The notes beneath the pieces are model-generated. The model was not told the DNA's origin. It searched no databases and worked only from the letters and a program-made list of their open reading frames with translations. This document shows, piece after piece, positions 23,771-42,359 of a stretch of 64,000 bases of DNA (the first letter of the stretch is position 1; each line of letters opens with the position of its first letter). The DNA comes from Microlunatus phosphovorus NM-1. GTDB taxonomy: Bacteria; Actinomycetota; Actinomycetes; Propionibacteriales; Propionibacteriaceae. The translations under genes and the position numbers were made by a program. The DNA is taken from NCBI RefSeq assembly GCF_000270245.1, contig NC_015635.1, positions 5,394,001 to 5,458,000 on the forward strand. Reading direction: 5' to 3'.

Positions 23771-24892
23771 ATGAATCAAGAGCAGCCCGTTTATTCGTCC
23801 CAGCAGCATCCCGATCCCCTGCCCGGCATGCCCGTCGCAGGCTCAACCACCGGACCGCAGCCGGCATTCCCGCCTGCAGCACCGTCTCCATACCCAGCAC
23901 CCCCATACCCGGCTCACGCGCCGTACCCAACCCAGGGGTATCGACCGTTGGGACCGACGGCGTGGCGTGACCCACTGCCACCAGCCGGCAGCGAGTACCA
24001 CCGGTTCTTCCGCACCCCTCGCAATGTGTGGTGGAAGGGTGTGGTGGCGATCGGGAGCTTCGTCGTCGGCTATCTGCTGATCACCAGTGCGCTCACCGTC
24101 GCGGCCATGATCATCGACTTCGCCACCGGACGCGCCGCCTGGGAATCGGTCAGCACCGGGGCCGTCGAGTTCACCCCGGCGCTGTTCCTGGCCACCAATA
24201 TCGGCAACGCCTTGGCGATCCCGCTCGCCATGCTGGTCCAGTGGCTGGTCTGGGGTCAGCCGGTCCGCTGGCTGCACTCGGTGACCGGATACGTCCGATG
24301 GCGGCTGATGGCACGCAGCGCCCTGATCGTGGTGCCACTGTGGATTGCCTACATGGTGATCTCAGCGGTGGCGTTTCCCGCACCGGCCGGTACCCCATCA
24401 GGCGGCGGCTTCACCGCCGAGAGCGTCGCGCTGCTGATCATCATGCTGTTGACCACGCCACTGCAGGCGGCCGGTGAGGAGTACGGGACGCGTGGCCTGA
24501 TCATGCGAGCTGCCGGCTCCTGGGTGGCTTCCCCGCTGCCCGGCCTGATCATCGCTGCCCTCGTGCCGTCGGTGCTCTTCATGCTCGCCCACGGCGCCGG
24601 CGACCCGTGGCTGAACGTCTACTACTTCCTGTTCGGCGTCACGATGTCGATTCTCGCCTGGCGTACGGGCGGACTCGAAGCCGGCATCGTGCTGCACGCG
24701 GTCAACAACATGCTGGCCTTCGGCGTCGTGATCCTGGCCGGCCAGGAGATCAACCTGGACCGCAGCGCCGGAGTCGGCGGCGCCTTCATGCTGGTGCCGA
24801 TGGCGGCGTTGCTCATCGTCACCGCGGTGCTGGTCCTGTTCGCGCGGCGGTGGCAGGTGCAGCGGACCTATCAGCCGATCAGCCCAGCGTGA
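23771..24892 (+). CDS. CPBP-family (CAAX/Abi) intramembrane protease
   Basis: A 373-residue membrane protein with a proline-rich cytoplasmic N-terminus (~70 residues) and about eight transmembrane helices. The CPBP/CAAX motifs are all present: EEYGTRG (EExxxR-like), FMLAHG and LHAVNN, which hold the glutamates and histidines of the glutamic-type active site. Such proteins process prenylated or bacteriocin-related peptides, or serve as scaffolds. A TAGGAT -10 element (23753-23758) lies just upstream. Its TGA stop lies inside a TGATCA tandem repeat shared with the convergent GH15 gene. Confidence 0.85.
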   Translation: MNQEQPVYSSQQHPDPLPGMPVAGSTTGPQPAFPPAAPSPYPAPPYPAHAPYPTQGYRPLGPTAWRDPLPPAGSEYHRFFRTPRNVWWKGVVAIGSFVVGYLLITSALTVAAMIIDFATGRAAWESVSTGAVEFTPALFLATNIGNALAIPLAMLVQWLVWGQPVRWLHSVTGYVRWRLMARSALIVVPLWIAYMVISAVAFPAPAGTPSGGGFTAESVALLIIMLLTTPLQAAGEEYGTRGLIMRAAGSWVASPLPGLIIAALVPSVLFMLAHGAGDPWLNVYYFLFGVTMSILAWRTGGLEAGIVLHAVNNMLAFGVVILAGQEINLDRSAGVGGAFMLVPMAALLIVTAVLVLFARRWQVQRTYQPISPA

Positions 24893-24936
24893 TCAGTGGA
24901 GGGTGATCAGTCGGCAGGGTGATCAGTCGGCAGGGT
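24891..24936. repeat. 16-bp tandem repeat containing both convergent stop codons
   Basis: gatcagtcggcagggt occurs twice exactly (24905-24920, 24921-24936), preceded by a shorter 14-base unit (24891-24904). Each unit boundary makes a TGATCA palindrome, which is a TGA stop on both strands. The CPBP stop uses the first TGATCA and the GH15 stop uses the third. Confidence 0.85.
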
Positions 24937-26911
24937 GAGGTTGTGAGCTCATCATGGTGTCCTCCTGCCGGTTGCCGTCGTGATGATGCCGCGCCTCGAG
25001 CTTGATCACGTGTAGTACGGCATTGATCAGGGCCAGATGGGTGAACGCCTGCGGGAAGTTGCCGAGATGCTGGCCGGTGTGTGCGTCGATCTCCTCGCCG
25101 TACAGGTTCAGCGCCCCGGCGAACGACAGCAGCTTGGCGCACAGTTTGCGGGCCCGCTGATACTCCCCGATCTCGCAGAGGGCTGAGACCAGCCAGAACG
25201 AGCAGATGGTGAACGAGCCCTCTTCGCCGGAGAACCCGTCGTCGGTCTCCTCCACCTTGTAGCGCAGCACCAGGTCGTGCACGGTGAGCTCGTCGGCGAT
25301 CGCCAGCACCGTGGCGCGGATCCGCGGGTCGTCGGGCGGCAGGAACCGGAGCAGCGGCGCCAGCAGCAGCGATGCGTCCAGGGCAGTGGTGTCGTAGTGC
25401 TGGGTGAACACCCCGCGCTTGTCGACGCCGTGGGTGAGGATGTCCTCCTTGATCTCCTCGGCGGCCAGCTCCCACTCCTGCGCCTTGCCCGTCTCCCCCA
25501 TGATTCGGGCCAGCTTCGCGCCGCGATCCACCGCGACCCAGCACATGATCTTGGACGAGGTGAAGTGCTTCAGCCCGCCGCGTACCTCCCAGATCCCGGC
25601 GTCGGGTTCGCGCCAGTGCTTGAGCGCCTCGTCGACCTGCTTGTTGAGGATGGGCCACATCCGCCCGTCGAGGTGGTCGGCGGTCTTGGCGTGCAGATAG
25701 ACCGAATCCAGCAGGGCGCCCCAGACGTCGTGCTGCTGCTGGTTGTATGCGGCATTGCCGATCCGGACCGGCCGGGAATTGGCATAGCCCGGCAGATGGT
25801 CCAGCTCGTACTCGTCCAGCTCCCGTTCCCCGGCGATGCCGTACATGATCTGGACGTGGTCGTCGCGGGTCGCCACATCGGCGATGAAGGAGAAGAAGTC
25901 CAACGCCTCCCAGTCGAAACCGATCGAATAGAGCCCCCACAGCGCGAACGTCGCGTCCCGCATCCAGGTGTAGCGATAGTCATAGTTCCGGCCACCACCC
26001 AGGGTCTCGGGCAGCGAGGTGGTCCCGGCGGCAGCAATGGCGCCGGTCGGGGTGTAGGTGAGTCCCTTGAGCGTGAGGGCGCTGCGTTGCAGGTAGGTCC
26101 GCCAGGGATGATCCGGGAACTTGCCCCGGGCCAGCCAGTGCTGCCAGTGATGCGCGGTCCAGACCTGGCGAGAATAGGCCTCGGCGTACGTCAGCGGCGG
26201 CGGCTTGCTGCCCCACGACAAGGCAACGAAGCGGGTGTCCCCCTCCTTGAGCAAGGTGCGAGCATTCGCCTGCCCACCCTCGAAGCCCAGCCGCAGATCG
26301 GTGGTCAGGGTCAGCCGGAGATCCTCACCGTCAGCCGTCGCCTGGCCTTGGTGGTAGCCGTGCTCGGTGTAGTCCCACGAAGCGGTCTTGCGGCCGTAGT
26401 CGAACACCGGCTCGCACTCCATCGAGACCTGCACCTCGCCAGAGACGCAGCGCACCGTCCGCAGCAGCACATGCTCCGCGTCATAATCGGTCGGCGTCCG
26501 ACGGTGGGTCTTGGACCGGGTGTCCTCATGCCGCCACGGGCCCATCAGCAACGCGTCCCGGACCACGATCCAGCCGGTCGGCGTGCCCCAGCTGGTCTCG
26601 ATGATCATCGTGCCCGGCAGATAGCGGACGTCGGCCGGCACCTCGATATCGACCGGTGAGATCCGGAACGCGCCGGCATGGCGCCCGAGAACCCGGCCGA
26701 AGAGGCTCGGCGAGTCGAATCGTGGCACGCACATCCAGTCCACCGACCCACCCGGAGAAATCAGCGCATTCACCTCACCGTCGCTGAGAAACCCATAGTC
26801 GGCGATCGGCACCAATCGGGCTTGGTGCGGTGGGGCCGTGTTTCCGACCGGATGAGATGGGGCTGCCTGCTGACTTTTCGACGTTTTGCTGGTCGCCATA
26901 GGAGGCAGCAT
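24923..26911 (-). CDS. Glycoside hydrolase family 15 (glucoamylase/trehalase-like)
   Basis: A 662-residue intracellular GH15 enzyme. An N-terminal beta-sandwich (IADYGFLSDGEVNALISPGG, VDWMCVPRFDSPS) is followed by the (alpha/alpha)6 barrel with YRYTWMRDATFALW, the catalytic-region segment YGIAGERELDEYELDHLPGY and EEGSFTICSFWLVSALCEIG. Mycobacterial members of this branch are trehalases, so trehalose is the best guess; other alpha-glucosides are possible. No signal peptide. ATG 26899 (MATSKTSK) is an alternative start; neither has a clear ribosome binding site. It is divergent from oleA. Confidence 0.88.
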   Translation of the reverse strand: MLPPMATSKTSKSQQAAPSHPVGNTAPPHQARLVPIADYGFLSDGEVNALISPGGSVDWMCVPRFDSPSLFGRVLGRHAGAFRISPVDIEVPADVRYLPGTMIIETSWGTPTGWIVVRDALLMGPWRHEDTRSKTHRRTPTDYDAEHVLLRTVRCVSGEVQVSMECEPVFDYGRKTASWDYTEHGYHQGQATADGEDLRLTLTTDLRLGFEGGQANARTLLKEGDTRFVALSWGSKPPPLTYAEAYSRQVWTAHHWQHWLARGKFPDHPWRTYLQRSALTLKGLTYTPTGAIAAAGTTSLPETLGGGRNYDYRYTWMRDATFALWGLYSIGFDWEALDFFSFIADVATRDDHVQIMYGIAGERELDEYELDHLPGYANSRPVRIGNAAYNQQQHDVWGALLDSVYLHAKTADHLDGRMWPILNKQVDEALKHWREPDAGIWEVRGGLKHFTSSKIMCWVAVDRGAKLARIMGETGKAQEWELAAEEIKEDILTHGVDKRGVFTQHYDTTALDASLLLAPLLRFLPPDDPRIRATVLAIADELTVHDLVLRYKVEETDDGFSGEEGSFTICSFWLVSALCEIGEYQRARKLCAKLLSFAGALNLYGEEIDAHTGQHLGNFPQAFTHLALINAVLHVIKLEARHHHDGNRQEDTMMSSQPHPAD

Positions 26912-27022
26912 GGCGGCAATGTGATCTCAGGCGCAATAGGGCATGCGAAAAGAACGTGCCACGATAGGGCGGCACAAGTCGTACGAGCAACCTGGGATCG
27001 GCGTCCCCGGGAGAGGACGAGG

Positions 27023-28048
27023 ATGAGCGGGAATGCAACCTATCGGCTGAGCAACACCACCATCTTGGCGGCCTGCGCGGTCGAAGCGCCGATCGTGGCG
27101 ACGTCCGCCGCCTTCGACGAGCGGCTGGCCGAGACCTACCGGCGGGTGGGGACCAGGCCGGGTCTGCTGGTGCGGCTGGCCGGCGTGCAGGAACGTCGCT
27201 GGTGGCCGGAGGATGTGACCTTTGCCGATGCGGCGGCGATGGCCGGAGCGAAGGCGCTCGCCGAGGCCGGGATCCGACCAGAACAGGTCGGTGTGGTGAT
27301 CAACACCTCGGTCTGCCGCAGCCATCTGGAGCCCTCGGTCGCGGTCGCGGTCCACCACCAGCTGGGGCTGCCGACCAACTGCTTGAACTTCGACGTCGCC
27401 AACGCCTGTCTGGGCTTCGTCAATGCCATCCAGCTGGCGGGCACCTTGATCGACTCGGGTCAGCTCGACTACGCGCTGATCGTCGACGCCGAGGGCTCGC
27501 GCCAGATTCACGAGCTGACCCTGGACCGGTTGTCGTCACCGACCGCGACCGCGGCCGAGTTCAAGGAACAGTTTGCGTCGCTGACCATCGGCTCCGGGTC
27601 CGCCGCCTTCGTGTTGGGTCGGGCCGATCGGCACCCGGAGGGTCATCGGGTGATCGGCGGCGCCAGCCGGACCGGCTCCGAGCACCACGATCTGTGTGTC
27701 GGCAGTCTGGACATGATGCGAACCGACAGCAAGAAGCTGTTCGATCATGGCATCGCCTTGGCCGTGGCGACCTGGGAGGACGCCAAGGACGAGTTCGACT
27801 GGGACGGTGCCGTCGACTGGTTCATCGCCCACCAGACCTCGACCGTGCATCTACGAGCGATGGCCAAAGCGGTCGGTGTGAGCTCGGCTCACTTCCCCAC
27901 GACGGTGGAGAAGTACGGCAACATGGGCCCGGCCGCCGTGCCGTTCACCCTGGCCCACCACGCCGACCGGATGCGGGCCGGGGATCGCATCGTGCTGATC
28001 GGCATCGGCTCAGGGCTGAACACCTCCTTCGCCGAGATCGTCTGGTGA
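27023..28048 (+). CDS. oleA: OleA, head-to-head acyl-CoA condensing thiolase
   Basis: A 341-residue thiolase-superfamily enzyme that joins two fatty acyl-CoAs without prior elongation chemistry, giving a beta-keto acid for long-chain olefin synthesis. The catalytic triad is visible: Cys129 in VANACLGF, His near 271 in IAHQTS and Asn near 300 in YGNMGPAA. GAGAGGA lies 6 bases before ATG 27023; the open frame upstream is not coding-like. Its TGA overlaps the GTG of oleBC (GTGA). The identity rests on the family plus the unmistakable oleBC-oleD context. Confidence 0.95.
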   Translation: MSGNATYRLSNTTILAACAVEAPIVATSAAFDERLAETYRRVGTRPGLLVRLAGVQERRWWPEDVTFADAAAMAGAKALAEAGIRPEQVGVVINTSVCRSHLEPSVAVAVHHQLGLPTNCLNFDVANACLGFVNAIQLAGTLIDSGQLDYALIVDAEGSRQIHELTLDRLSSPTATAAEFKEQFASLTIGSGSAAFVLGRADRHPEGHRVIGGASRTGSEHHDLCVGSLDMMRTDSKKLFDHGIALAVATWEDAKDEFDWDGAVDWFIAHQTSTVHLRAMAKAVGVSSAHFPTTVEKYGNMGPAAVPFTLAHHADRMRAGDRIVLIGIGSGLNTSFAEIVW

Positions 28049-30789
28049 ACTCCGCAAGGACGGCAGCGGCGCCGTTGTTGGACGGCCTGCCCGGAATCGA
28101 TCCCACCTGGTCACGGCGGGTCGACGTGCCCGACGCCGACCAGATCGTGAGGACCTGGCACTTGCTGGAGCGACCAGCCAACTCCGAATCGCCGATCGGC
28201 ACCATGATCTGTCTGCACGGGAATCCGACCTGGTCCTACCTGTGGCGCCGCTTCCTGCAGCTCGCGCCGGACGGCTGGCGGGTGATCGCTCCCGATCAGC
28301 TCAGCATGGGCTGGTCCGAGCAACTCGAGCAACCGCGCAGTCTGGCGCAGCGGATCGACGATCTCGCTCGGTTGACCGAGGCGCTCGGCGTGACCGGACC
28401 GGTGGTCGCCGTGGCACACGATTGGGGCGGGCCGGTGCTGCTCGGCTGGGCCGAACGCCATCGCGATCAACTGGCCGGCATCGTCTTGACCAACACGGGC
28501 GTCGCGATTCCGGCCGGCACCACCCTGCCCCCGCTGATCCGGATCGCCCGCTCTGCACCGATGTTGGAATCGGTCTGCGTCCGCACCCCGGCCTTCGTCC
28601 GGGGTGCCACGGCGATCTCCCGGCCACGACTGCCGAAGGAGATCCGCGACGCGTACGCCAGTCCGTACGCGATCGCCGGCCGTCGTCGGGCCGTCCGGGA
28701 CTTCGTCGCCGACATCCCGCTGGAGTCCGACCATCCCAGCCGGGCTGCGCTCGACCAGGTGGTCGACGGACTCGCGAATCTGGCAGACGTGCCGACCCTG
28801 CTCGCCTGGGGCCCCCGCGACCCGGTGTTCTCGATCCGCTATCTGCACGATCTGCGTCGCCGGCTCCCCCAGGCCGACATCCAGCTCTATCCCGCCGCAT
28901 CGCACCTGGTCGTCGAGGATGCGCCCACCGCGGCCGCCGACATCTGGGAGTGGGTGCAGCAGGCACCCCTCTCCGCCGACCCCCACCGGGCTCTCCGGCA
29001 CCCGGCCGACCCCGAATCCGAGATCACCACCGAGGTACGCCCGCTGTGGGCCGGGCTGCTGGAGCGGGCGGACGATCCCGCCACCGCAATCGCTGAGCTG
29101 GGTCCGCGAGGCGTCGTCCCGATCAGCTTCGCGGCGCTTGAACGCCGGGTGGCCGACCTCACGATCGGGCTGGTCCGAGCCGGAGTCGGGCCGGGCCAGC
29201 GGGTGGCCGTGCTGGTTCGGCCGGGGATCGACCTGACTGTCGCGGTGTACGCCTGCTGGCGCGCCGGAGCCGCGATCGTGGTGGCCGACGCCGGTCTCGG
29301 CCTGCGCAATCTTGGCCGGGCGCTGCGCAGCGCCGATCCTGATCACCTGATCGCCATTCCGGCCGGGCTCACCGCCGCCCATGCCCTCCGCGTACCGGGG
29401 CACCGGATCGTCGCCGGCGATCTGCCGCCGATCATGCGGGCCCGGATGCGAGTCAGCCACACACTCGCCGAGCTCGAAGAGCTTGGCCGGCACGCGCGCC
29501 AGCTCGATCAGCGGGCCGGCATCCCCGAGCTGACGCCCCCCGCTGAGCTGACTGAGCTGGCCGCGATTCCGCCCAGCCCCGGCCCAGACGCCGAGGCAGC
29601 CGTGCTGTTCACCTCCGGCGCCACCGGTCCGTCCAAGGGTGTCGTCTATCGGCACCGCCAGCTGCGTGCGCAGATCGACCTCTTCGGCCGGGTGGGCGAT
29701 CTCCGACCGGGCGCCCGGCTGGTTGCCGCGTTCGCACCGTTCGCGCTCTATGCGGCTGCGCTGGGCGCGGCCGCCGCAGTGCCGGACATGGATGTCACCA
29801 AACCCGGCACCTTGACGGCGAAGGCGCTGGCCGAAGCGGTCGCCGCGGTCTCGGCCACGGTGGTGTTCGCCTCGCCCGCTGCGCTGCGCAACGTCGTCGC
29901 GACCGCAGACGGGCTGACCGACGACCTCCGCGCCCAGCTGGGCAGCGTGCGAATCCTGCTCTCCGCGGGAGCGCCGGTGCCGCTGCCGCTGCTGCGCCGA
30001 GTGCAGGCGCTGCTGCCCAACGCCGAGCTGCATACGCCGTACGGCATGACCGAGGCACTTCCGGCTACCGATGTCACCATGGCGGAGATCGAACAAGCGG
30101 TAGCCGAGGTCGGCAGCCGGGCCAACGGCGTCTGCGTGGGCCGGCCGGTGCCGGGCGTACGGATCGGCATCGCGCCGCTGGGCCCGGACGCAGTTCCCGC
30201 CGGCGAGCCGGTCGACGTCACCGACCGCACGGACCTCACCGATTGCACGGGCGAGATCTGCATCTCCGCGACGCATGTCAAGGACCACTATGACCGGCTC
30301 TGGCTGACCCAGCAGCGCAGCGTGGCCGCCGGCCAGCAGCAGGCTGGCCAACGACGGACGGGCTGGCATCGCACCGGCGACGTCGGCCATGTCGACGCGC
30401 GGCAGCGACTGTGGGTCGAAGGTCGGCTCGTGCACGTGATCACCAGCCCAGCCGGACCGATCACGCCGGTCGGCATCGAGCAGCGGGTCGAGGCGCTGCC
30501 AGGTGTCGAGCTGGCTGCAGCGGTCGGCGTCGGGCCCGCCGGCACCCAGCAGACGGTCGTCGTCCTCGTCCCGACCGGCGGCGCCACCGCTCGGCGGCCC
30601 TTGGCCCCGGCCGCTCTGGCGGCGAGCGTGCGGCAGGCCGCCGGCAGCCCCATCGCCGCCGTGCTGGTCACCGACCGGCTCCCGGTCGACATCCGACACG
30701 CCTCCAAGATCGACAGATCCCGGGTGGCCCGATGGGCTGAGCAGGTGCTGGCCGGAGATTCACTCCTGCATCGGGATCGCCGACCATGA
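28045..30789 (+). CDS. oleBC: OleBC fusion: beta-lactone decarboxylase + beta-lactone synthetase
   Basis: A 914-residue two-domain enzyme. Residues 1-300 are an alpha/beta hydrolase of the haloalkane dehalogenase type (LHGNPTWSYLWRRF, nucleophile HDWGG near 125-129, catalytic histidine in ASHLVVED), matching OleB, which decarboxylates the beta-lactone to a cis-olefin. Residues ~320-914 are an AMP-forming ligase (FTSGATGPSKG near 521, TPYGMTEALP near 663, WHRTGDVGH near 773), matching OleC, which makes the beta-lactone from the beta-hydroxy acid. Fused oleBC genes are known from actinobacteria such as Micrococcus. The GTG start overlaps the oleA stop, and the stop overlaps the oleD start. Confidence 0.95.
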   Translation: MNSARTAAAPLLDGLPGIDPTWSRRVDVPDADQIVRTWHLLERPANSESPIGTMICLHGNPTWSYLWRRFLQLAPDGWRVIAPDQLSMGWSEQLEQPRSLAQRIDDLARLTEALGVTGPVVAVAHDWGGPVLLGWAERHRDQLAGIVLTNTGVAIPAGTTLPPLIRIARSAPMLESVCVRTPAFVRGATAISRPRLPKEIRDAYASPYAIAGRRRAVRDFVADIPLESDHPSRAALDQVVDGLANLADVPTLLAWGPRDPVFSIRYLHDLRRRLPQADIQLYPAASHLVVEDAPTAAADIWEWVQQAPLSADPHRALRHPADPESEITTEVRPLWAGLLERADDPATAIAELGPRGVVPISFAALERRVADLTIGLVRAGVGPGQRVAVLVRPGIDLTVAVYACWRAGAAIVVADAGLGLRNLGRALRSADPDHLIAIPAGLTAAHALRVPGHRIVAGDLPPIMRARMRVSHTLAELEELGRHARQLDQRAGIPELTPPAELTELAAIPPSPGPDAEAAVLFTSGATGPSKGVVYRHRQLRAQIDLFGRVGDLRPGARLVAAFAPFALYAAALGAAAAVPDMDVTKPGTLTAKALAEAVAAVSATVVFASPAALRNVVATADGLTDDLRAQLGSVRILLSAGAPVPLPLLRRVQALLPNAELHTPYGMTEALPATDVTMAEIEQAVAEVGSRANGVCVGRPVPGVRIGIAPLGPDAVPAGEPVDVTDRTDLTDCTGEICISATHVKDHYDRLWLTQQRSVAAGQQQAGQRRTGWHRTGDVGHVDARQRLWVEGRLVHVITSPAGPITPVGIEQRVEALPGVELAAAVGVGPAGTQQTVVVLVPTGGATARRPLAPAALAASVRQAAGSPIAAVLVTDRLPVDIRHASKIDRSRVARWAEQVLAGDSLLHRDRRP

Positions 30790-31790
30790 GGGTCTTGCTG
30801 ACCGGGGGCCGGAGCATGCTCGGGGCGGCCGTGGCGCGGCAGCTCGCCGACCGGGGCGACCAGGTGACGCTGCTGCAGCGCCGTCCTGCCGGGCTCGGGC
30901 TGCCCGAGGTCCTTGCCGACCTGGCCGATCCGGCGGCCGGCAGCGCGGTCCGCCGTGCTGTGGACGGTCAGGACGCCGTCCTTCATCTCGCCGCCAAGGT
31001 CGGCATCTCCGGCAGCTGGCCGGAGTTCGTCGCCACCAATGTGACGGGCACCGCCACCATCGTCGCCGCCTGCCGCGAGCTGGGCATTCCCCGCCTGGTG
31101 TACGTCTCCTCGCCCTCGGTCGCGCACAGTGGCTCGGCCTTGATCGGCGTCGGGGCCACGCCCGCCGATCCCGACCAGGCCAGCGGTCACTACGCCCGGA
31201 GCAAGGCAATGGCCGAGCAGCTCGCGCTGGCGGCCGATCAGCCCGATCTCCGGGTGCTGGCCATCCGCCCGCACGTCGTATGGGGTCCCGGCGACACTCA
31301 GCTCGTGGCGCGGATCGTCGATCGGGCTCGCCGCGGCAGCCTGCCGGTGCTCGGCACCGGAGCCGCGTTGGTCGACTCCACCTATGTGGACAACGCCGTC
31401 GACGCCACCGTCGCGGCACTCGATCGGGTCGACCAGGTGCACGGCTGCGCGCTGGTGATCACCAACGGCGAGCCGCGGCCGATCGCCGAGCTGATCGCCG
31501 GGTTCGCCATCGCCGGCGGCGCTCCGGCACCGCACCGCCACCTCCCGGCCGCTGTCGGGAGAGCCGCCGGTGGCGTGGTCGAGGCGGTCTGGGGCGCCCG
31601 TCGGCTCCTCGGCCGGCCGGCCGCCGACGACCCGCCGATGACCCGGTTCCTCGCCGAGCAGTTGAGCACCGCGCACTGGTTCGACCAACGGCAGACCCGC
31701 GACCTGTTGCGCTGGCAACCGCGGATCGACCTCGACACCGGCTTTGCCCGGCTGGCTGCGGCGTACGCATTCCGCCTGACCTGCAGGTAG
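30786..31790 (+). CDS. oleD: OleD, 2-alkyl-3-ketoacid reductase
   Basis: A 334-residue extended SDR (3-beta-HSD type) that reduces the OleA product to the beta-hydroxy acid using NADPH. The cofactor motif is TGGRSMLG. The catalytic region has VSSPSVAHSG and YARSK (YxxxK). The C-terminal half contains RPHVVWGPGD and the STYVDNAVDA signature. It is coupled to oleBC by an ATGA overlap, so the three genes form a single operon with all four activities. Confidence 0.94.
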   Translation: MRVLLTGGRSMLGAAVARQLADRGDQVTLLQRRPAGLGLPEVLADLADPAAGSAVRRAVDGQDAVLHLAAKVGISGSWPEFVATNVTGTATIVAACRELGIPRLVYVSSPSVAHSGSALIGVGATPADPDQASGHYARSKAMAEQLALAADQPDLRVLAIRPHVVWGPGDTQLVARIVDRARRGSLPVLGTGAALVDSTYVDNAVDATVAALDRVDQVHGCALVITNGEPRPIAELIAGFAIAGGAPAPHRHLPAAVGRAAGGVVEAVWGARRLLGRPAADDPPMTRFLAEQLSTAHWFDQRQTRDLLRWQPRIDLDTGFARLAAAYAFRLTCR

Positions 31791-34721: not shown

Positions 34722-37700
34722 ATGCCTAGCTCGCGGATCGCGAGCCGGATCGCCGACCTGCTGAGTGATGCCCAGGAAGCGCGAGACGCCGGCGACTGGA
34801 AGACCGCGAGCTCCTTGCTGGACGCGGTCAACGCGCTCGACCCGGGCAACGCGGACGCGGCCGCGATGCGCGCGGGCGCTGCCACCAGACGGCAGATGAC
34901 GCTGCTCTTCTGCGACGTCGTCGGCTCCACCGAGCTCGCCGACCAGCGCGATCCGGAGGAGGTCACCGCGATCATCGAGCAGTATCGCGCGGCCTGCGTC
35001 GAGGCGGTCGCCGAGTTCGACGGCTACATCGACGATCATCGTGGCGACGGGATGCTGGTGCTGTTCGGCTATCCGCAGGTCGATGAGGACGACGCTCGGC
35101 GCGGCGTGCTGTGCGGACTGCAGATGGTCGAGCGGGTGCAGCGGCTGTCGGTCGCCGGGTTGCCGGGCTCACGACTGCAGGTCCGGATCTCGGTGCACAC
35201 CGACCTGGTGGTGGTGGCCGATGGCATCACCGGGTCGACCGCCAACGAATGCGCCCGCATCCAGGCGCTGGCCGCGCCGGACACCGTCGTGATCAGCGAC
35301 ACCACCCAGGACCTGGTGTGGCCGTGGTTCGAGACCGAGTCCCTCGGCCCTCAATCGCTGCGCGGCGTCTCGCGTCCGATCGAGGTGTTCACCGTCAAGG
35401 CCGCCCTGCCGGCTCCTCGTGGCCGGACCTGGCGAGACCGGGTCAGCCCGTTCGTCAACCGGGAGGCGGAGTTCGGCAAGATGGCCTGGCTGGCGCCAGT
35501 CCCATTGCCGTCCGGCAACGACAGCGATGACAGCCCCGACGCCGACGGCCCAGCCCCGGCGGACGATCAGGAATCCGCCCCCACCGTGGCTCGCGCGGTC
35601 TGCGTGATCGGTCCGGGCGGCATGGGCAAGACCCGGTTCACCATGGAGACCGCGCGCCGGTTGGGTCTGCGGCCACTGGTCTGCGCCTGCTCGCGGATGC
35701 AACGAGATGTCAGCCTGCACCCGTTCCGGGATCTGCTTGCCCAGGCCTGCGGCATGACGGTCGACGATCGCCCCGAGGTCCGGTTGGCGAAACTTCGGGC
35801 CCGGGTGCAGGCCACGAGCAGCAACCCGGAGCCTGAGCCGGGCACCGATGCCGCTGCTGGTGGCGACCTGCCGTTCCTCGCGGCAGTGTTCGACATCGGA
35901 TTGGAGTTGATCTCGCCCCCCAGCGAGGTGCAGCCGGACCGACTGCGCCGCCAAGCACTGCTCGCCGCCGCGCAGCTCGCCCACGCTCATGCCGGCCGGG
36001 AGCCTTCGTTGGTGTTCGTCGACGACATCCAGTGGGCAGATCAGTCCACCCTCGACCTGCTCGCCGTGCTGCTCACCCTGCCTGAGCTCAAGATCGTCAT
36101 CGCGGCGCGCGACGGGTACGAGCCACCCTGGCCGGAGACGCTGGTGCGGCGCATCGTGCTCAACCCGCTGGACGCCGACGCGACCACCGAGCTGGTCCGC
36201 CACGCTCCCGGAGCGGCCATGCTCAGTCCGGAGCGGAGTCGCGAGCTGATCGAGCGCAGTGACGGGGTGCCGCTGTTCGTCGAGGAACTGCTGGTGACGG
36301 CGGCTCAGACCGAGTCCGGTGGGATCCCGCACCGCTCGCTGCAGTTCAGTGCCTACAAGATCCCGCCCGCGCTCCGCGATCCGCTGCTGGCTCGGCTGTC
36401 CCGTCCCGAGGTCGATCTGGAGCTCGCGCAGCTCGCCTCGATCATCGGTCGCGATGTCGATCGGGACCTGCTGCAGCGGGCCGCGGGAATCGAGAACGCC
36501 GAGTTCGAGCGCCGGCTGCGGACGCTGCTGGACGCCGGTCTGATGGAGCTGACCGGCGCCAAACTCCGGTTCCGTCACGAGCTGATCCGCGAGGTCGCGT
36601 ACGAGACGCAGCGGCGTACCGTCCTCCGGGAACGGCACAGCACCCTCGCCGATCTGCTGGCCAGCGGCGAGGGCGCCGGGCATCGCGCCACCCAGGTCGC
36701 GGCCGCCCATCACCTCGAACGCGCCGGGCGTCTGGCCCACGCCGTGGCGGCCCATATCCAGATCGCCCAGGCCGATCAGGCCCTCGGCGCTCACGAGGAA
36801 GCGGCGGGACGGCTCACGCGCGTGCTCGAGCTGCTGGAGCCGACCCCGGCCGGGCTGGAACGTGACCGCACCGAGCTGGCGGTCCGCGAGCTGCGGAGCT
36901 TCAGCGCAGTCACGGCGCGTGGCTACGCCGCGACGGAGACCGCCGAGGACTATCCACGCTGCCGGCAGCTGATCGAGGAGTCGGTCCGCGACGCCGAGGT
37001 GCTGCCGTACCTGATCCGACAGTGGACCTATTACAGCGCGCGCGGCGATTTCGTCCAGGCCGAGGAAATCAACAACGACGTCATCCGCCGGACCGAAGCC
37101 GCCGGGATCTATTTTCCTGGCGTCTCGCTGGGCAAGGGCGTCGTCGACTTCTTCCAGGGAGACTTCGCCGAAGCCGCCAGGCAGCTGCGCGACGCCGTGG
37201 ACAACGGTTGGACCGCCGACCTGCAGCTGCCGCCGGAGTGGACCCTGCCGAATGATCCCCGGGCCGCCGCCTTCGCGCATCTCGTGCCGACGCTGGTGGC
37301 GCTGGGTGACCGCGCGGCTGCCGAGCAGGCTGCCGACGAGGGACTTGCGCGCGCGGAGTCGCTGCCTTACCCCATCGGCCCCTTCAGTGGCCAGTACGTC
37401 GACAGTCTGCTGGCCACCGCACGCAGCATGGACGGCGACCCCGTGGGCGCTGCCGAGATAGGCCAACGCCTGGTCAAGGTCGGGGACCGCCACGGGTTTA
37501 CGATCTGGAGCCTGTCGGGTCGGATGCACTGTCTCTATTCCGGGATCCGGCTCGGCGATCACAGTCTGCTGCCGGCATTCGCCGAGACGGTCGACGCCTG
37601 GCACCACGTGGTCGCGATCGACTCGTGGACACCGCAGTGGTTCGCCGATCTCGGCTTCGCTCACCTGCTGGTCGGTGATGCGACCTCGGCGCTCGCCGCG

Positions 37701-37904
37701 TTCGACCGGTCGCTGCAGATCGCGTACGCCAACGGCAGCCGGTTCTATGAGGCTGAGGCCCTCCGCGGCCGGGCCCAGGCCAAGTCCGCCCTCGGCCGAC
37801 CCGGTGCGCTGGAGGACTGTCGGCAGGCACTGTTCGTGGCCGAGCGGCAAGGGGCGAAGCTGTTCGCAGCTCGCGCACACGATGCCCTGGCCGTCACGGC
37901 ATGA
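34722..37904 (+). CDS. Class III nucleotidyl cyclase / STAND ATPase / TPR protein
   Basis: A 1060-residue signalling protein. A short TPR-like N-terminus precedes a class III cyclase domain (~55-220): FCDVVGSTE and GDGMLVLFGYP contain the two metal-binding aspartates, and GSTANECARI carries the conserved Asn/Arg pair. The adenine-specifying lysine position is not canonical, as in many cyclases of this AAA-linked group. An ATPase follows (Walker A GPGGMGKTR near 297-305, Walker B SLVFVDDIQW near 430), then TPR-like repeats (~660-1050). Cyclic AMP is the likely product but not certain. GAGG precedes ATG 34722. The 95-base gap upstream could hold its own promoter. Its stop overlaps the FAD gene start (ATGA). 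Confidence 0.88.
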   Translation: MPSSRIASRIADLLSDAQEARDAGDWKTASSLLDAVNALDPGNADAAAMRAGAATRRQMTLLFCDVVGSTELADQRDPEEVTAIIEQYRAACVEAVAEFDGYIDDHRGDGMLVLFGYPQVDEDDARRGVLCGLQMVERVQRLSVAGLPGSRLQVRISVHTDLVVVADGITGSTANECARIQALAAPDTVVISDTTQDLVWPWFETESLGPQSLRGVSRPIEVFTVKAALPAPRGRTWRDRVSPFVNREAEFGKMAWLAPVPLPSGNDSDDSPDADGPAPADDQESAPTVARAVCVIGPGGMGKTRFTMETARRLGLRPLVCACSRMQRDVSLHPFRDLLAQACGMTVDDRPEVRLAKLRARVQATSSNPEPEPGTDAAAGGDLPFLAAVFDIGLELISPPSEVQPDRLRRQALLAAAQLAHAHAGREPSLVFVDDIQWADQSTLDLLAVLLTLPELKIVIAARDGYEPPWPETLVRRIVLNPLDADATTELVRHAPGAAMLSPERSRELIERSDGVPLFVEELLVTAAQTESGGIPHRSLQFSAYKIPPALRDPLLARLSRPEVDLELAQLASIIGRDVDRDLLQRAAGIENAEFERRLRTLLDAGLMELTGAKLRFRHELIREVAYETQRRTVLRERHSTLADLLASGEGAGHRATQVAAAHHLERAGRLAHAVAAHIQIAQADQALGAHEEAAGRLTRVLELLEPTPAGLERDRTELAVRELRSFSAVTARGYAATETAEDYPRCRQLIEESVRDAEVLPYLIRQWTYYSARGDFVQAEEINNDVIRRTEAAGIYFPGVSLGKGVVDFFQGDFAEAARQLRDAVDNGWTADLQLPPEWTLPNDPRAAAFAHLVPTLVALGDRAAAEQAADEGLARAESLPYPIGPFSGQYVDSLLATARSMDGDPVGAAEIGQRLVKVGDRHGFTIWSLSGRMHCLYSGIRLGDHSLLPAFAETVDAWHHVVAIDSWTPQWFADLGFAHLLVGDATSALAAFDRSLQIAYANGSRFYEAEALRGRAQAKSALGRPGALEDCRQALFVAERQGAKLFAARAHDALAVTA

Positions 37905-39988
37905 GTGGGTCCGAGCCCGCTCGCCCTCGCAAGATCGCGATCATCGGGGGCGGCATGGCCGGCATGACGGCAGCCTGGCGGTTGAGCCACGCGGTCGGCG
38001 AGCCGGACCAAGGACCGATCGAGATCACCGTCTACGAGCAGAGCTGGCAGCTCGGCGGCAAGGGCGCCAGCGGCCGTGGCGTCCACGGACGCATCGAGGA
38101 GCACGGCCTGCATGTGTGGCTCGGCTACTACGAGAACGCGTTCCGGCTGATCCGCGAGGTCTACACCGAGCTGGACCGTGCGCGCACCGCCCCGGGGTGT
38201 CCGATCAAGACCTGGCGGGACGGGTTCGCACCCGCCGGCCGGGTCGGCGTCGAGGAGAAGACCGGACAGAGCTGGCAGCACTGGGTCGCCACCTTCCGGG
38301 CCACCAGCGGAGAGCCTGGCGATGCCGGCGCGGTGGGCGGGACCGCGGCGCCGGCGGAGTTCCTGCGCCGTGCCGTCGGGCTGCTGGCCGACTTCTCCGC
38401 CTCGCTGCTGGAGATGCGCGCCGCCGACCAGGCCGCCTCGACACCGGCGGTCGTGCTGAGCGGGTCTCCGCAACCGCCGCCGATTCCCAGAGCGGGTCGC
38501 CGGGATCTCGGCGGGTTGCTGCAACAGGCCCGCTTCGCGGCCGTGATCGCCACCATCGAAGGGATCCGGTTGCTCGGGGAGTCCGTGCCACCGGGCATGT
38601 TCGATGCGCTCACCGAACAGCTGGACCGGATGCGGGTCGACCTGGATGTCGTGGTCAGTCGCGGGGATCCGAGCCTGCGACGCCTCGGCGAGCTGGCCGA
38701 CCTGGTCGTCAGCTGCTGCCTGGGCATCGTTCAGGACCGGCTGCTGACCGATCCACGGGGCTTCGGAGCGATCGACGATCTCGACTTCCGCGACTGGCTG
38801 CGTCGGCACGGGGCACGTCCTCCCACCTTGGAGTCGGCCCTGGTCCGCGGCATGTACGACCTGGTCTTCGCCTATCGCAACGGCGACCGGACGCAGCCGC
38901 AGTTCTGCGCCGGGCTCGGTCTGTTCCTGGCCGGCAAGTTCTTCTTCGACTATCGCGGCTCGCTGTTCTGGCACCTGCAGGCCGGAATGGGTGACGTCGT
39001 GTTCGCCCCGATGTATCAGGTGCTGCGAGCGCGCGGCGTACGGTTCGAGTTCTTCCATCGACTCGACCGGCTGGTGCTCGACGCGGATCGACAGCAGATC
39101 GCGGGTCTCCGCCTGACCCGGACCCGCTCGGTGACAGCGGCGGAGTATGCGCCGTTGATCAGCGTCGAGGGCCTGCCCTGCTTCGGTGCTGAGCCCGACG
39201 AGACGCAGTTGATGCCCGGCGACGAGTCCACCGAGTTCGAGCTGCGGGCCGGTGACGATTTCGACACGGTCGTGCTGGCCGCCTCGATCGGCTCGCTGCC
39301 GGAACCCTGCGTGGAGCTGATCGAGAGCTCGGCGCGCTGGCAGGCGATGATCGCCGATGTGGCGACGGTCGCCACCCAGTCCCTGCAGCTGTGGCTCCGA
39401 CCCGCCGAGGCCGCCCTGGGCTGGAGCTTCCCCGCTTCCACCGTCAGCGGCTATCTGCCGCCGTTCGACACGTACGCGTCGATGACCCACCTACTGGCCC
39501 GGGAGGCGTGGCCGGAGAAGAACCGGCCGGAGACGCTGGGCTACTTCTGTGGCTCGCTGCAGCTGAGCGATGCCGCCGCTGATCCGGTCGAGGTCGTCAC
39601 GACCAACGCGATCCGATTTCTCGACCGGCATGCTGGACACTTCTGGCCTGCGGCAGCCAGTTCCACCGGCTTTCGCTGGGAGCTGCTGGCCGACGGCACG
39701 AGTTCGCCGACCGAATCTGGCCGACGGCTGGCCGGGCAGTACGTCCGGGCCAACGTCACCGGATCCGAGCGCTATGTCCAGTCGATACCGGGAACGCAGC
39801 GATCCCGGCTCCGGGTCGACGAGTCCGGCTACCGGAATCTGGTGCTGGCCGGCGACTGGACCAACTGCGGGCTCAATGCCGGCTGCGTCGAGGCGGCGGT
39901 GCTCAGCGGTTTGGAGGCGGCGAACACGGTGCTCGGTCGCCCGTTGATGAGCGATGTCTCCGGTTCCTGGTACGGAGTTGAATCGTGA
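37901..39988 (+). CDS. FAD-dependent phytoene-desaturase-like oxidoreductase
   Basis: A 695-residue flavoprotein of the amine oxidase/phytoene desaturase superfamily. The N-terminal Rossmann motif is IIGGGMAGMTAAWRL, followed by QSWQLGGKGASGR and HGLHVWLGYYEN. The C-terminal FAD-contact region is NLVLAGDWTNCGLNAGCVEAA. It is about 150-200 residues longer than bacterial carotene desaturases. The extra length is a variable helical region (~residues 140-330) between the cofactor motifs. Neighbouring polyprenyl synthase suggests an isoprenoid substrate. Its TGA lies in the first unit of a 17-bp tandem repeat. Confidence 0.85.
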   Translation: MSGSEPARPRKIAIIGGGMAGMTAAWRLSHAVGEPDQGPIEITVYEQSWQLGGKGASGRGVHGRIEEHGLHVWLGYYENAFRLIREVYTELDRARTAPGCPIKTWRDGFAPAGRVGVEEKTGQSWQHWVATFRATSGEPGDAGAVGGTAAPAEFLRRAVGLLADFSASLLEMRAADQAASTPAVVLSGSPQPPPIPRAGRRDLGGLLQQARFAAVIATIEGIRLLGESVPPGMFDALTEQLDRMRVDLDVVVSRGDPSLRRLGELADLVVSCCLGIVQDRLLTDPRGFGAIDDLDFRDWLRRHGARPPTLESALVRGMYDLVFAYRNGDRTQPQFCAGLGLFLAGKFFFDYRGSLFWHLQAGMGDVVFAPMYQVLRARGVRFEFFHRLDRLVLDADRQQIAGLRLTRTRSVTAAEYAPLISVEGLPCFGAEPDETQLMPGDESTEFELRAGDDFDTVVLAASIGSLPEPCVELIESSARWQAMIADVATVATQSLQLWLRPAEAALGWSFPASTVSGYLPPFDTYASMTHLLAREAWPEKNRPETLGYFCGSLQLSDAAADPVEVVTTNAIRFLDRHAGHFWPAAASSTGFRWELLADGTSSPTESGRRLAGQYVRANVTGSERYVQSIPGTQRSRLRVDESGYRNLVLAGDWTNCGLNAGCVEAAVLSGLEAANTVLGRPLMSDVSGSWYGVES

Positions 39989-40039
39989 GCAGGGTTGAAT
40001 CGTGAGCAGGGTTGAATCGTGAGCAGGGTCGGAGTGTGA
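39977..40039 (+). repeat. 17-bp triple tandem repeat forming a chain of GTGA-coupled mini-ORFs
   Basis: gttgaatcgtgagcagg occurs three times in a row (39977-39993, 39994-40010, 40011-40027). The FAD gene ends in the TGA of the first unit. That GTGA opens a mini-ORF (39985-40005, MSRVES) whose own TGA opens a second (40002-40022, MSRVES), then a third (40019-40039, MSRVGV). The third stop overlaps the GTG of the next gene at 40036. Each unit carries AGCAGGG as a weak ribosome-binding element. Confidence 0.85.
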
Positions 40040-40620
40040 AGGAGTCGGAGCGGGACCAGACAGCGCCGATCAGCGAATCCGTCCTCGAGGATCGAGTGCT
40101 GCAGGCCGCGGAAGAGGCCTTCGCCAGAGTGATGGCCGGGGTGCCCGAACAACTGGCGACCATGCCACCCGATCTGGACCTCGCCGACGCCATCCGCTGG
40201 GCCGGCGACCGAGTCACCGAGCTGCTGGCGGGTCTGTCGGAGCTGCCGCTGGAGTCGTTGTTGGGTCTCGATCACGAGTCCGGAGCCACCACACCGATGC
40301 CGAACGGCGAGCCGGTGCGGGTGCAGGCCACGGCCGGCACGGTGGCCGAGGCCCGGGTCTGGGTGCATCCGGTGGGGGATCTCGCCTCCGGCGCGCTGCA
40401 TTTCCTGCTCAGCGACCTGGTCACCGCGAGCGGTGGGACGATTCCCGGGTCGCTGGCCGGCTTCACACCGGAACAGATCGCCACCCCGGTCACCGCCGGC
40501 GCGGGCACTCTTTTGAGGCTCTGGGTGCCGGCCGGCGCAGCTGCTGGCTGCTACCACGGGCACGTCTTCGCCCACGGGGTGATCGGTGCCGCCGTACCGA
40601 TCGTGGTGACCCTGACATGA
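40036..40620 (+). CDS. Unknown protein with helical N-terminus and C-terminal beta domain (194 aa)
   Basis: Residues ~15-75 are helical (LEDRVLQAAEEAFARVMAG, DAIRWAGDRVTELLAGLSEL). The rest is beta-rich and ends RLWVPAGAAAGCYHGHVF followed by PIVVTLT, resembling an Ig-like/NEW3-type strand pattern. A similar helix-plus-sandwich plan is seen in the 214-aa protein at 33982. No signal peptide. Start GTG 40036 overlaps the third mini-ORF stop; ORF reading from TTG 40012 is possible but would run through the repeat. It is flanked on both sides by mini-ORF relays. Confidence 0.65.
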   Translation: MKESERDQTAPISESVLEDRVLQAAEEAFARVMAGVPEQLATMPPDLDLADAIRWAGDRVTELLAGLSELPLESLLGLDHESGATTPMPNGEPVRVQATAGTVAEARVWVHPVGDLASGALHFLLSDLVTASGGTIPGSLAGFTPEQIATPVTAGAGTLLRLWVPAGAAAGCYHGHVFAHGVIGAAVPIVVTLT

Positions 40621-40652
40621 GAACCTGGACATGAGCACGCTGACATGAGAAC
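40611..40652 (+). repeat. 14-bp triple tandem repeat forming ATGA-coupled mini-ORFs
   Basis: Three imperfect 14-base units (cctgacatgagaac, ctggacatgagcac, gctgacatgagaac). The stop of the 194-aa gene overlaps ATG 40617, which opens MRTWT (40617-40634). Its stop overlaps ATG 40631, which opens MSTLT (40631-40648). That stop overlaps ATG 40645 of the polyprenyl synthase gene. Confidence 0.8.
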
Positions 40653-41666: not shown

Positions 41667-42359
41667 CTAGAGCCCGGCCCGGCGGCGGAGCGCGGCGGCG
41701 TCCCGGATCTCGATCGTCTTTCCGTCGACGTCGATCCAGCCCCGCCCGACCAGGCTTTGCAGCACCCGGTTGACCGCCGGACGCGAGGCACCAACCATCT
41801 GCGCCAGCTCGGTCTGCGTCAGATGGAGGTCGACCGACAGGCGGCTGGCGGCCCTGCCAGGCTGCCGCTCGGCAGTCTGGACGAGCAGCTTGGCCACCCG
41901 GCCGCCAAGGTCGAGGAACACCAGATCACTGGCCTGCTCGGTGAGCCGCCGAACCATCGCACCCAAGGTCCGCAGCAACTCATCGAGCAACACAGGACTG
42001 CGTTGCATCGCCTGGAGCAAGGCGGCACGGTTGACGACCAGGGCCGTGGTCGCCTGCACGGCGACCGCCGAGGCCGACCGTGGACCCTGGTCGATGAGGG
42101 ACAACTCGCCCAACACCTCGCCGGCACCGACCGTGGCCAGCACCATCTCGTCCCCGCGATCGGAGGTCACCGTGATCTTGACCAGCCCTTCGACGACCAC
42201 CGCCAGATGATCACCGGGGTCGCCTTGATACATCAGGTACTGATCCCGACGGTAGGTGCGCGGCACGCAGACAGCGGCCAACTCGCCCAAAGCGGTGCCA
42301 TCGAGCCCACCGAACACACTGGTCCGGCGAAGCGTGGCAAGAACCTCGTCGCGGTTCAT
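41667..42359 (-). CDS. Crp/Fnr-family cyclic-nucleotide-responsive regulator
   Basis: A 230-residue CRP-type transcription factor. The cyclic-nucleotide pocket motif is GELSLIDQGPRSASAVA (the RSA[ST] phosphate clamp is present). A long dimer helix and a winged helix-turn-helix follow (LTQTELAQMVGASRPAVNRVLQSL). No Fnr-type cysteine cluster is seen, so cAMP rather than iron-sulfur sensing is likely. The only usable start is ATG 42359, which begins two bases after the 3' end of tRNA-Arg on the same strand, leaving no room for a ribosome binding site unless it lies in the tRNA. It converges on the cyclase-containing operon. Confidence 0.92.
   Translation of the reverse strand: MNRDEVLATLRRTSVFGGLDGTALGELAAVCVPRTYRRDQYLMYQGDPGDHLAVVVEGLVKITVTSDRGDEMVLATVGAGEVLGELSLIDQGPRSASAVAVQATTALVVNRAALLQAMQRSPVLLDELLRTLGAMVRRLTEQASDLVFLDLGGRVAKLLVQTAERQPGRAASRLSVDLHLTQTELAQMVGASRPAVNRVLQSLVGRGWIDVDGKTIEIRDAAALRRRAGL

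Follow-up and report, generated by a model that had tools for sequence, protein, structure and literature searches.

A chain of mini-ORFs at an operon junction of Microlunatus phosphovorus, probably derived from a coupling site by tandem duplication

The MIRUs, which are said to go back to Supply et al. 1997, are repeats with a unit length of about 50-100 bp. The passages of PMC12548453 that deal with them describe them as mobile and present in many mycobacteria, with an ORF inside the repeat that is coupled to the neighbouring gene at -4 nt, for which reason their insertion is expected to have little effect on expression. Coupling by termination-reinitiation at ATGA or TGATG overlaps is established, as set out in the corresponding part of PMC6728339. 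A third system is found in Beggiatoaceae, where TAACTGA direct repeats place stop codons just upstream of starts and a role in translation has been suggested; the abstract of PMC4679880 locates this single heptamer at many places in the genome, proposes that it is a binding site and describes no overlapping start/stop chain. The array analysed here lies between two genes (A and B) of an operon of Microlunatus phosphovorus NM-1. It resembles a MIRU in its position at a gene junction and in the ORF of its unit, coupled at -4 nt. It differs in that the A-B unit is not dispersed, that the units (17 bp here, 14 bp at the next junction) are short and that the A-B array seems to have arisen by duplicating the junction in place. 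Since its unit is undispersed and much shorter, the array is, as far as its sequence goes, a new variant of coupling and not a MIRU. Each link of the chain is a 4-nt overlap like those of ATGA/TGATG coupling, but where that coupling involves a single overlap of two genes, the chain has several in series, connected by mini-ORFs five or six codons long. With the TAACTGA repeats it shares short direct repeats with stops near starts. Our literature search, which reached only a minor part of the subscription papers, turned up MIRUs and single-overlap coupling and, among the papers listed, no comparable short array; absence is not proven.

The locus belongs to a closed 5.68-Mb chromosome, and all genes of the operon are on the plus strand (Table 1). 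Positions are those of the window, by which we mean the whole stretch of 64,000 nucleotides that was analysed, unless the chromosome or another genome is named. The stop codon of the cyclase/AAA gene overlaps the start of gene A by ATGA (37901-37904), and the stop of gene A falls inside the first 17-bp unit. Gene B has no family match in Pfam or NCBIfam at E <= 0.001. The best NCBIfam match of gene C is NF041169, a family 2 encapsulin cargo polyprenyl transferase, with a score of 176 bits that is far under the cut-off of 450. Gene C is adjoined by a gene for a Crp-like cNMP-binding regulator on the opposite strand (41667-42359). Further upstream, the region 26903-31790 includes a gene resembling ketosynthase III, which scores above the cut-off of NF006720, as well as one like OleD, whose match to NF042422 (297 bits) stays under the cut-off of 580; we read this cluster as similar to those of olefin biosynthesis (Ole).

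Table 1. Genes, arrays and mini-ORFs of the operon, and the gene upstream of a third array (chromosome coordinates in the last line only)
Feature	Position	Strand	Basis or remark
Cyclase/AAA gene	34722..37904	+	ORF; Pfam PF00211, PF13191
Gene A, FAD/amine-oxidase-like, 695 aa	37901..39988	+	ORF; Pfam PF01593, PF13450
Array, three exact 17-bp units	39977..40027	+	match runs on two bases to 40029
Mini-ORF 1, VSRVES	39985..40005	+	GTG overlaps gene A TGA
Mini-ORF 2, VSRVES	40002..40022	+	
Mini-ORF 3, VSRVGV	40019..40039	+	TGA overlaps predicted gene B start
Gene B, 194 aa, predicted start	40036..40620	+	ORF
Degenerate array, period 14	40612..40652	+	Tandem Repeats Finder
Mini-ORF MRTWT	40617..40634	+	ATG overlaps gene B TGA
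Mini-ORF MSTLT	40631..40648	+	TGA overlaps synthetase start
Gene C, polyprenyl synthetase, 335 aa	40645..41652	+	ORF; Pfam PF00348
DapB-like gene, own genome	1720523-1721266		array downstream

The initial annotation had described three exact 17-bp units over the stop of gene A, linked by GTGA, and both the units and the links were recovered. Tandem Repeats Finder reports a period of 17, 3.1 copies and 100% matches for 39977-40029, with a score of 106 that ranks second among its 58 rows in the window. As in a VNTR, the copies of one unit stand head to tail. GTGA occurs at 39985, 40002, 40019 and 40036 with a spacing of 17 bases throughout, the last interval keeping this spacing despite a divergent sequence. 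The reading frames thus delimited have six codons, as had been stated, and each ends in a stop that forms a 4-nt overlap with the following GTG. The annotation also placed the end of the chain on the start of the 194-aa gene; the frame does reach 40036, but this start is a prediction and TTG 40012 is an in-frame alternative that would give a protein of 202 aa. This TTG is the last member of a second chain (TTGA at 39978, 39995 and 40012) interleaved with the first. The arithmetic that had been pointed out, a period of 17 equal to a 21-base mini-ORF minus the 4-base overlap, is exact but amounts to one condition and not to several coincidences: when an overlap is duplicated with a period of 2 mod 3 and no in-frame stop, the chain follows automatically. 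The chain stays intact if whole units are gained or lost. The exact 17-mer has three occurrences in the 5.68-Mb genome, all in this array. One further place is found with two mismatches and ten with three, against five for the reversed pattern. A mobile or dispersed repeat was rejected on the ground that the 17-mer is confined to the A-B site.

A second chain, absent from the earlier description, is located at the other end of gene B. ATGA motifs at 40617, 40631 and 40645, the last being the start of the polyprenyl synthetase gene, are spaced 14 bases apart and delimit two mini-ORFs. Its sequence and period differ from those of the first chain while the phase is the same, and both arrays obey one rule, a period of 2 mod 3 with mini-ORFs whose length, counting the stop, equals the period plus 4. 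At each link of both chains, stop and start overlap by 4 nt. The chain is real, had been described correctly and recurs in the genome. Some of its regularity does not follow automatically: in the final interval of the A-B array and in the B-C intervals, spacing and frame are kept in spite of a diverged sequence.

Gene A and gene B are both present in two of 20 genomes of the genus, the present one and a relative (G005) whose gene A is 71% identical. Neither the A-B nor the B-C junction of this relative contains a mini-ORF; both are plain 4-nt GTGA overlaps (9220 and 9816, respectively). The junction sequences align (GTACAGGCGTGAGC in G005, GTTGAATCGTGAGC in M. phosphovorus) and, since the G005 junction lines up with the unit, the latter seems to be made up of the final codons of gene A and the old start of gene B. 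Plain overlap is taken as the ancestral state because it is the commonest arrangement, a direction that we infer for this one orthologous locus: in 351 of 544 pairs that have a DTGA stop and lie less than 150 apart, the start over that stop is already in frame with the following gene. At E <= 1e-60, gene A was found in one of 293 genomes of the order, that of M. phosphovorus itself. Of 57 relatives, 11 match at E <= 0.001, nine of them by short partial matches only. A search of genome contigs gave one near full-length match (the G005 relative) and three partial ones, and 11 plasmid records carry distant homologs, with about 30-36% identity among the ten matches listed.

We consider it moderately probable that the array arose when an ancestral GTGA stop/start overlap of 4 nt was duplicated in tandem, and that it would still carry out coupling. 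The first step, a local tandem duplication of the stop/start overlap between two genes of an operon, is well supported. A ribosome that finishes gene A at the first TGA would then restart on the overlapping GTG, make six residues, stop and restart in turn until it reaches gene B, as might be expected from the known coupling described in part in PMC6728339. The hand-over would survive any number of units, since 17 and 14 are both 2 mod 3 and no other in-frame stop occurs in the unit, and expansion would be tolerated where coupling matters. Some ribosomes would be lost at each step, unless nearly all of them restart or scanning carries them past steps. In a third, speculative step, the number of units would alter the output. 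The one relative and the genus-wide control described below support the view that such junctions tend to keep their stop/start coupling.

The control was a survey of 2.878 Mb from five Microlunatus genomes (1.678 Mb from M. phosphovorus, 0.6 from G012 and 0.2 each from G007, G009 and G003), in which a codon-usage caller defined 2524 genes with predicted starts. Pairs were on the same strand, 1-100 nt apart, with a DTGA downstream start and not directly in frame. The controls were CTGA and TAR stops, for which the same frame was read, on the assumption that CTG is not a start. A relay landed on the next start at 50 of 71 DTGA stops, which carry an overlapping start codon, versus 51 of 119 control stops, which carry none (Fisher p = 0.0003), and versus 38 of 80 when CTGA stops alone were considered (p = 0.005). 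The difference held without repeat-bearing junctions (45/66 versus 49/111, p = 0.003) and, among these, for pairs in which both genes have at least 150 aa (36/53 versus 37/80, p = 0.02). It was observed in M. phosphovorus (27/39 versus 33/82, p = 0.0035) and was weak in the relatives alone (23/32 versus 18/37, p = 0.08). Shuffling of the spacers gave expectations of 39.4 +/- 2.8 relays and 2.1 +/- 1.3 multi-step chains, compared with 50 and 11 seen. Direct overlaps that arose by shuffling did not count as relays, so that these expectations are slightly low. Three multi-step chains with equal steps were seen, against a shuffled mean of 0.055 (140 junctions; at most one per round in 200 rounds). 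Two of them lie in the gene A-B-C operon and the third, at 1126409 in G012, has a doubtful start. Coupling sites thus show a moderate excess of relays, owing either to selection for coupling or to descent from former overlaps.

Short repeats over gene ends are themselves frequent. Repeats with a score of at least 40 and a period of 8-60 cover 62 of the 2521 gene stops in the survey, and at 25 of these 62 the following gene has the opposite orientation. Repeats with periods of 14-16 that contain GTGA or TTGA also occur at ends without a co-directional next gene. In the window, other repeats over gene stops are found at 24885-24938 and 2722-2757, convergent ends included. Where a DTGA stop is followed by a gene at no more than 100 nt, a period of 2 mod 3 is not significantly favoured (6 of 10, against 22 of 52 other stops, p = 0.33); a filter on the period, suggested by 7 of 9 such junctions in a smaller set, was dropped after this result in the larger one. 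The array could accordingly be a neutral repeat, one of the gene-end duplications frequent in the genus, with gene B starting alone at 40036 or 40012. That repeats over stops are common even where coupling is impossible, and that the period is not significantly filtered, speak for this explanation, which we hold to be somewhat unlikely. The enrichment of relays at DTGA over control stops argues against it, as does the fact that both operon arrays hold their phase even in diverged sequence. Because such repeats exist at ends with nothing to couple, a mutational origin without regulatory role nevertheless appears at least as likely as copy-number tuning.

Ribosome-binding potential bears on the same point. 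Pairing energies were calculated with the anti-SD sequence. Random sites have a median of -2.3 kcal/mol, and the 164 starts that lie in -4 overlaps have one of -5.8. The three A-B mini-ORFs gave -6.1, -4.8 and -4.8 kcal/mol and the GTG of gene B -4.8; compared with the random median, this suggests that gene B may possess its own binding site, which speaks for a neutral repeat. The mini-ORFs of the second chain gave -2.0 and -2.7 kcal/mol and the synthetase start -3.0. By this measure the putative binding site of the synthetase is weak next to the -4 overlaps, which counts against a neutral repeat.

Identical units might also be a protein-binding site or a folded RNA signal, in which case the chain would be incidental. 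RNA folding is ordinary at the A-B (z = -0.87) and B-C (z = +1.39) junctions, and an RNA hairpin was rejected there since folding is not unusual. With the 17-mer confined to a single site and the neighbouring chain following the same phase logic in a different sequence, such a signal is very unlikely. A variable unit number that determines how much gene A product is made relative to gene B product, as a copy-number dial, would fit the identity of the units and a chain that holds at any number, and each 17-bp unit repeats the stretch GAGCAGGG upstream of a GTG. Against this, no copy-number variation was seen in the comparison, which comprised one genome of the species and the sole ortholog found, that of G005, which has no array. 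Such a dial, which the initial annotation had put forward as tuning of the ribosome supply to the downstream gene, is possible but unsupported, and we rate it as quite unlikely. A tandemly duplicated coupling site that is predicted still to couple is the most likely nature of the chain.

A third array occurs elsewhere in the M. phosphovorus chromosome, with four ATGA motifs at 14-base spacing between a gene that we read as DapB-like and an LmeA-like gene (PF11209). This junction was compared in 19 genomes of the genus including the present one, leaving aside paralog loci and G001, where the gene is split over contigs. It is a direct -4 overlap in six, a direct TGATG in four (G005 has TGATG), a mini-ORF chain in three and neither in six. 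Besides the present genome, a chain with one 14-base step is found in G013, and in G016 TGATG leads into an ORF of two codons that ends in GTGA. The junction often has coupling geometry, of which the chains are local elaborations; this, too, speaks for a duplicated coupling site. At 336527 on the minus strand of the chromosome, a gene read as CobT-like is connected to CobS (PF02654) by a single 17-base mini-ORF step (VSRALA). Two candidates from G012 were set aside. The chain at 1092265 was dropped when its gene pair vanished after the gene caller had been retrained on more sequence. The one at 1126409 was not taken as a further case, its downstream start being doubtful (the hydrolase-like part begins about 24 codons later); it stays inside the survey counts, as the third equal-step chain of the shuffle test.

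If the chain is translated, it would offer a natural test of how many serial termination-reinitiation events can follow one another and of the cost of each step. The array also suggests that a coupling site can absorb an insertion, as a duplication of 2 mod 3 leaves the coupling intact. That mini-ORF chains are regular operon junctions in Microlunatus, and perhaps in other high-GC actinobacteria, with repeats of period 2 mod 3 through which chain length, evolvable and reversible, would set the ratio of adjacent gene products, is an unlikely extension of these observations. The excess of relays in Microlunatus nonetheless suggests that intergenic mini-ORFs, below the size usually considered in gene calling, may be coupling elements.
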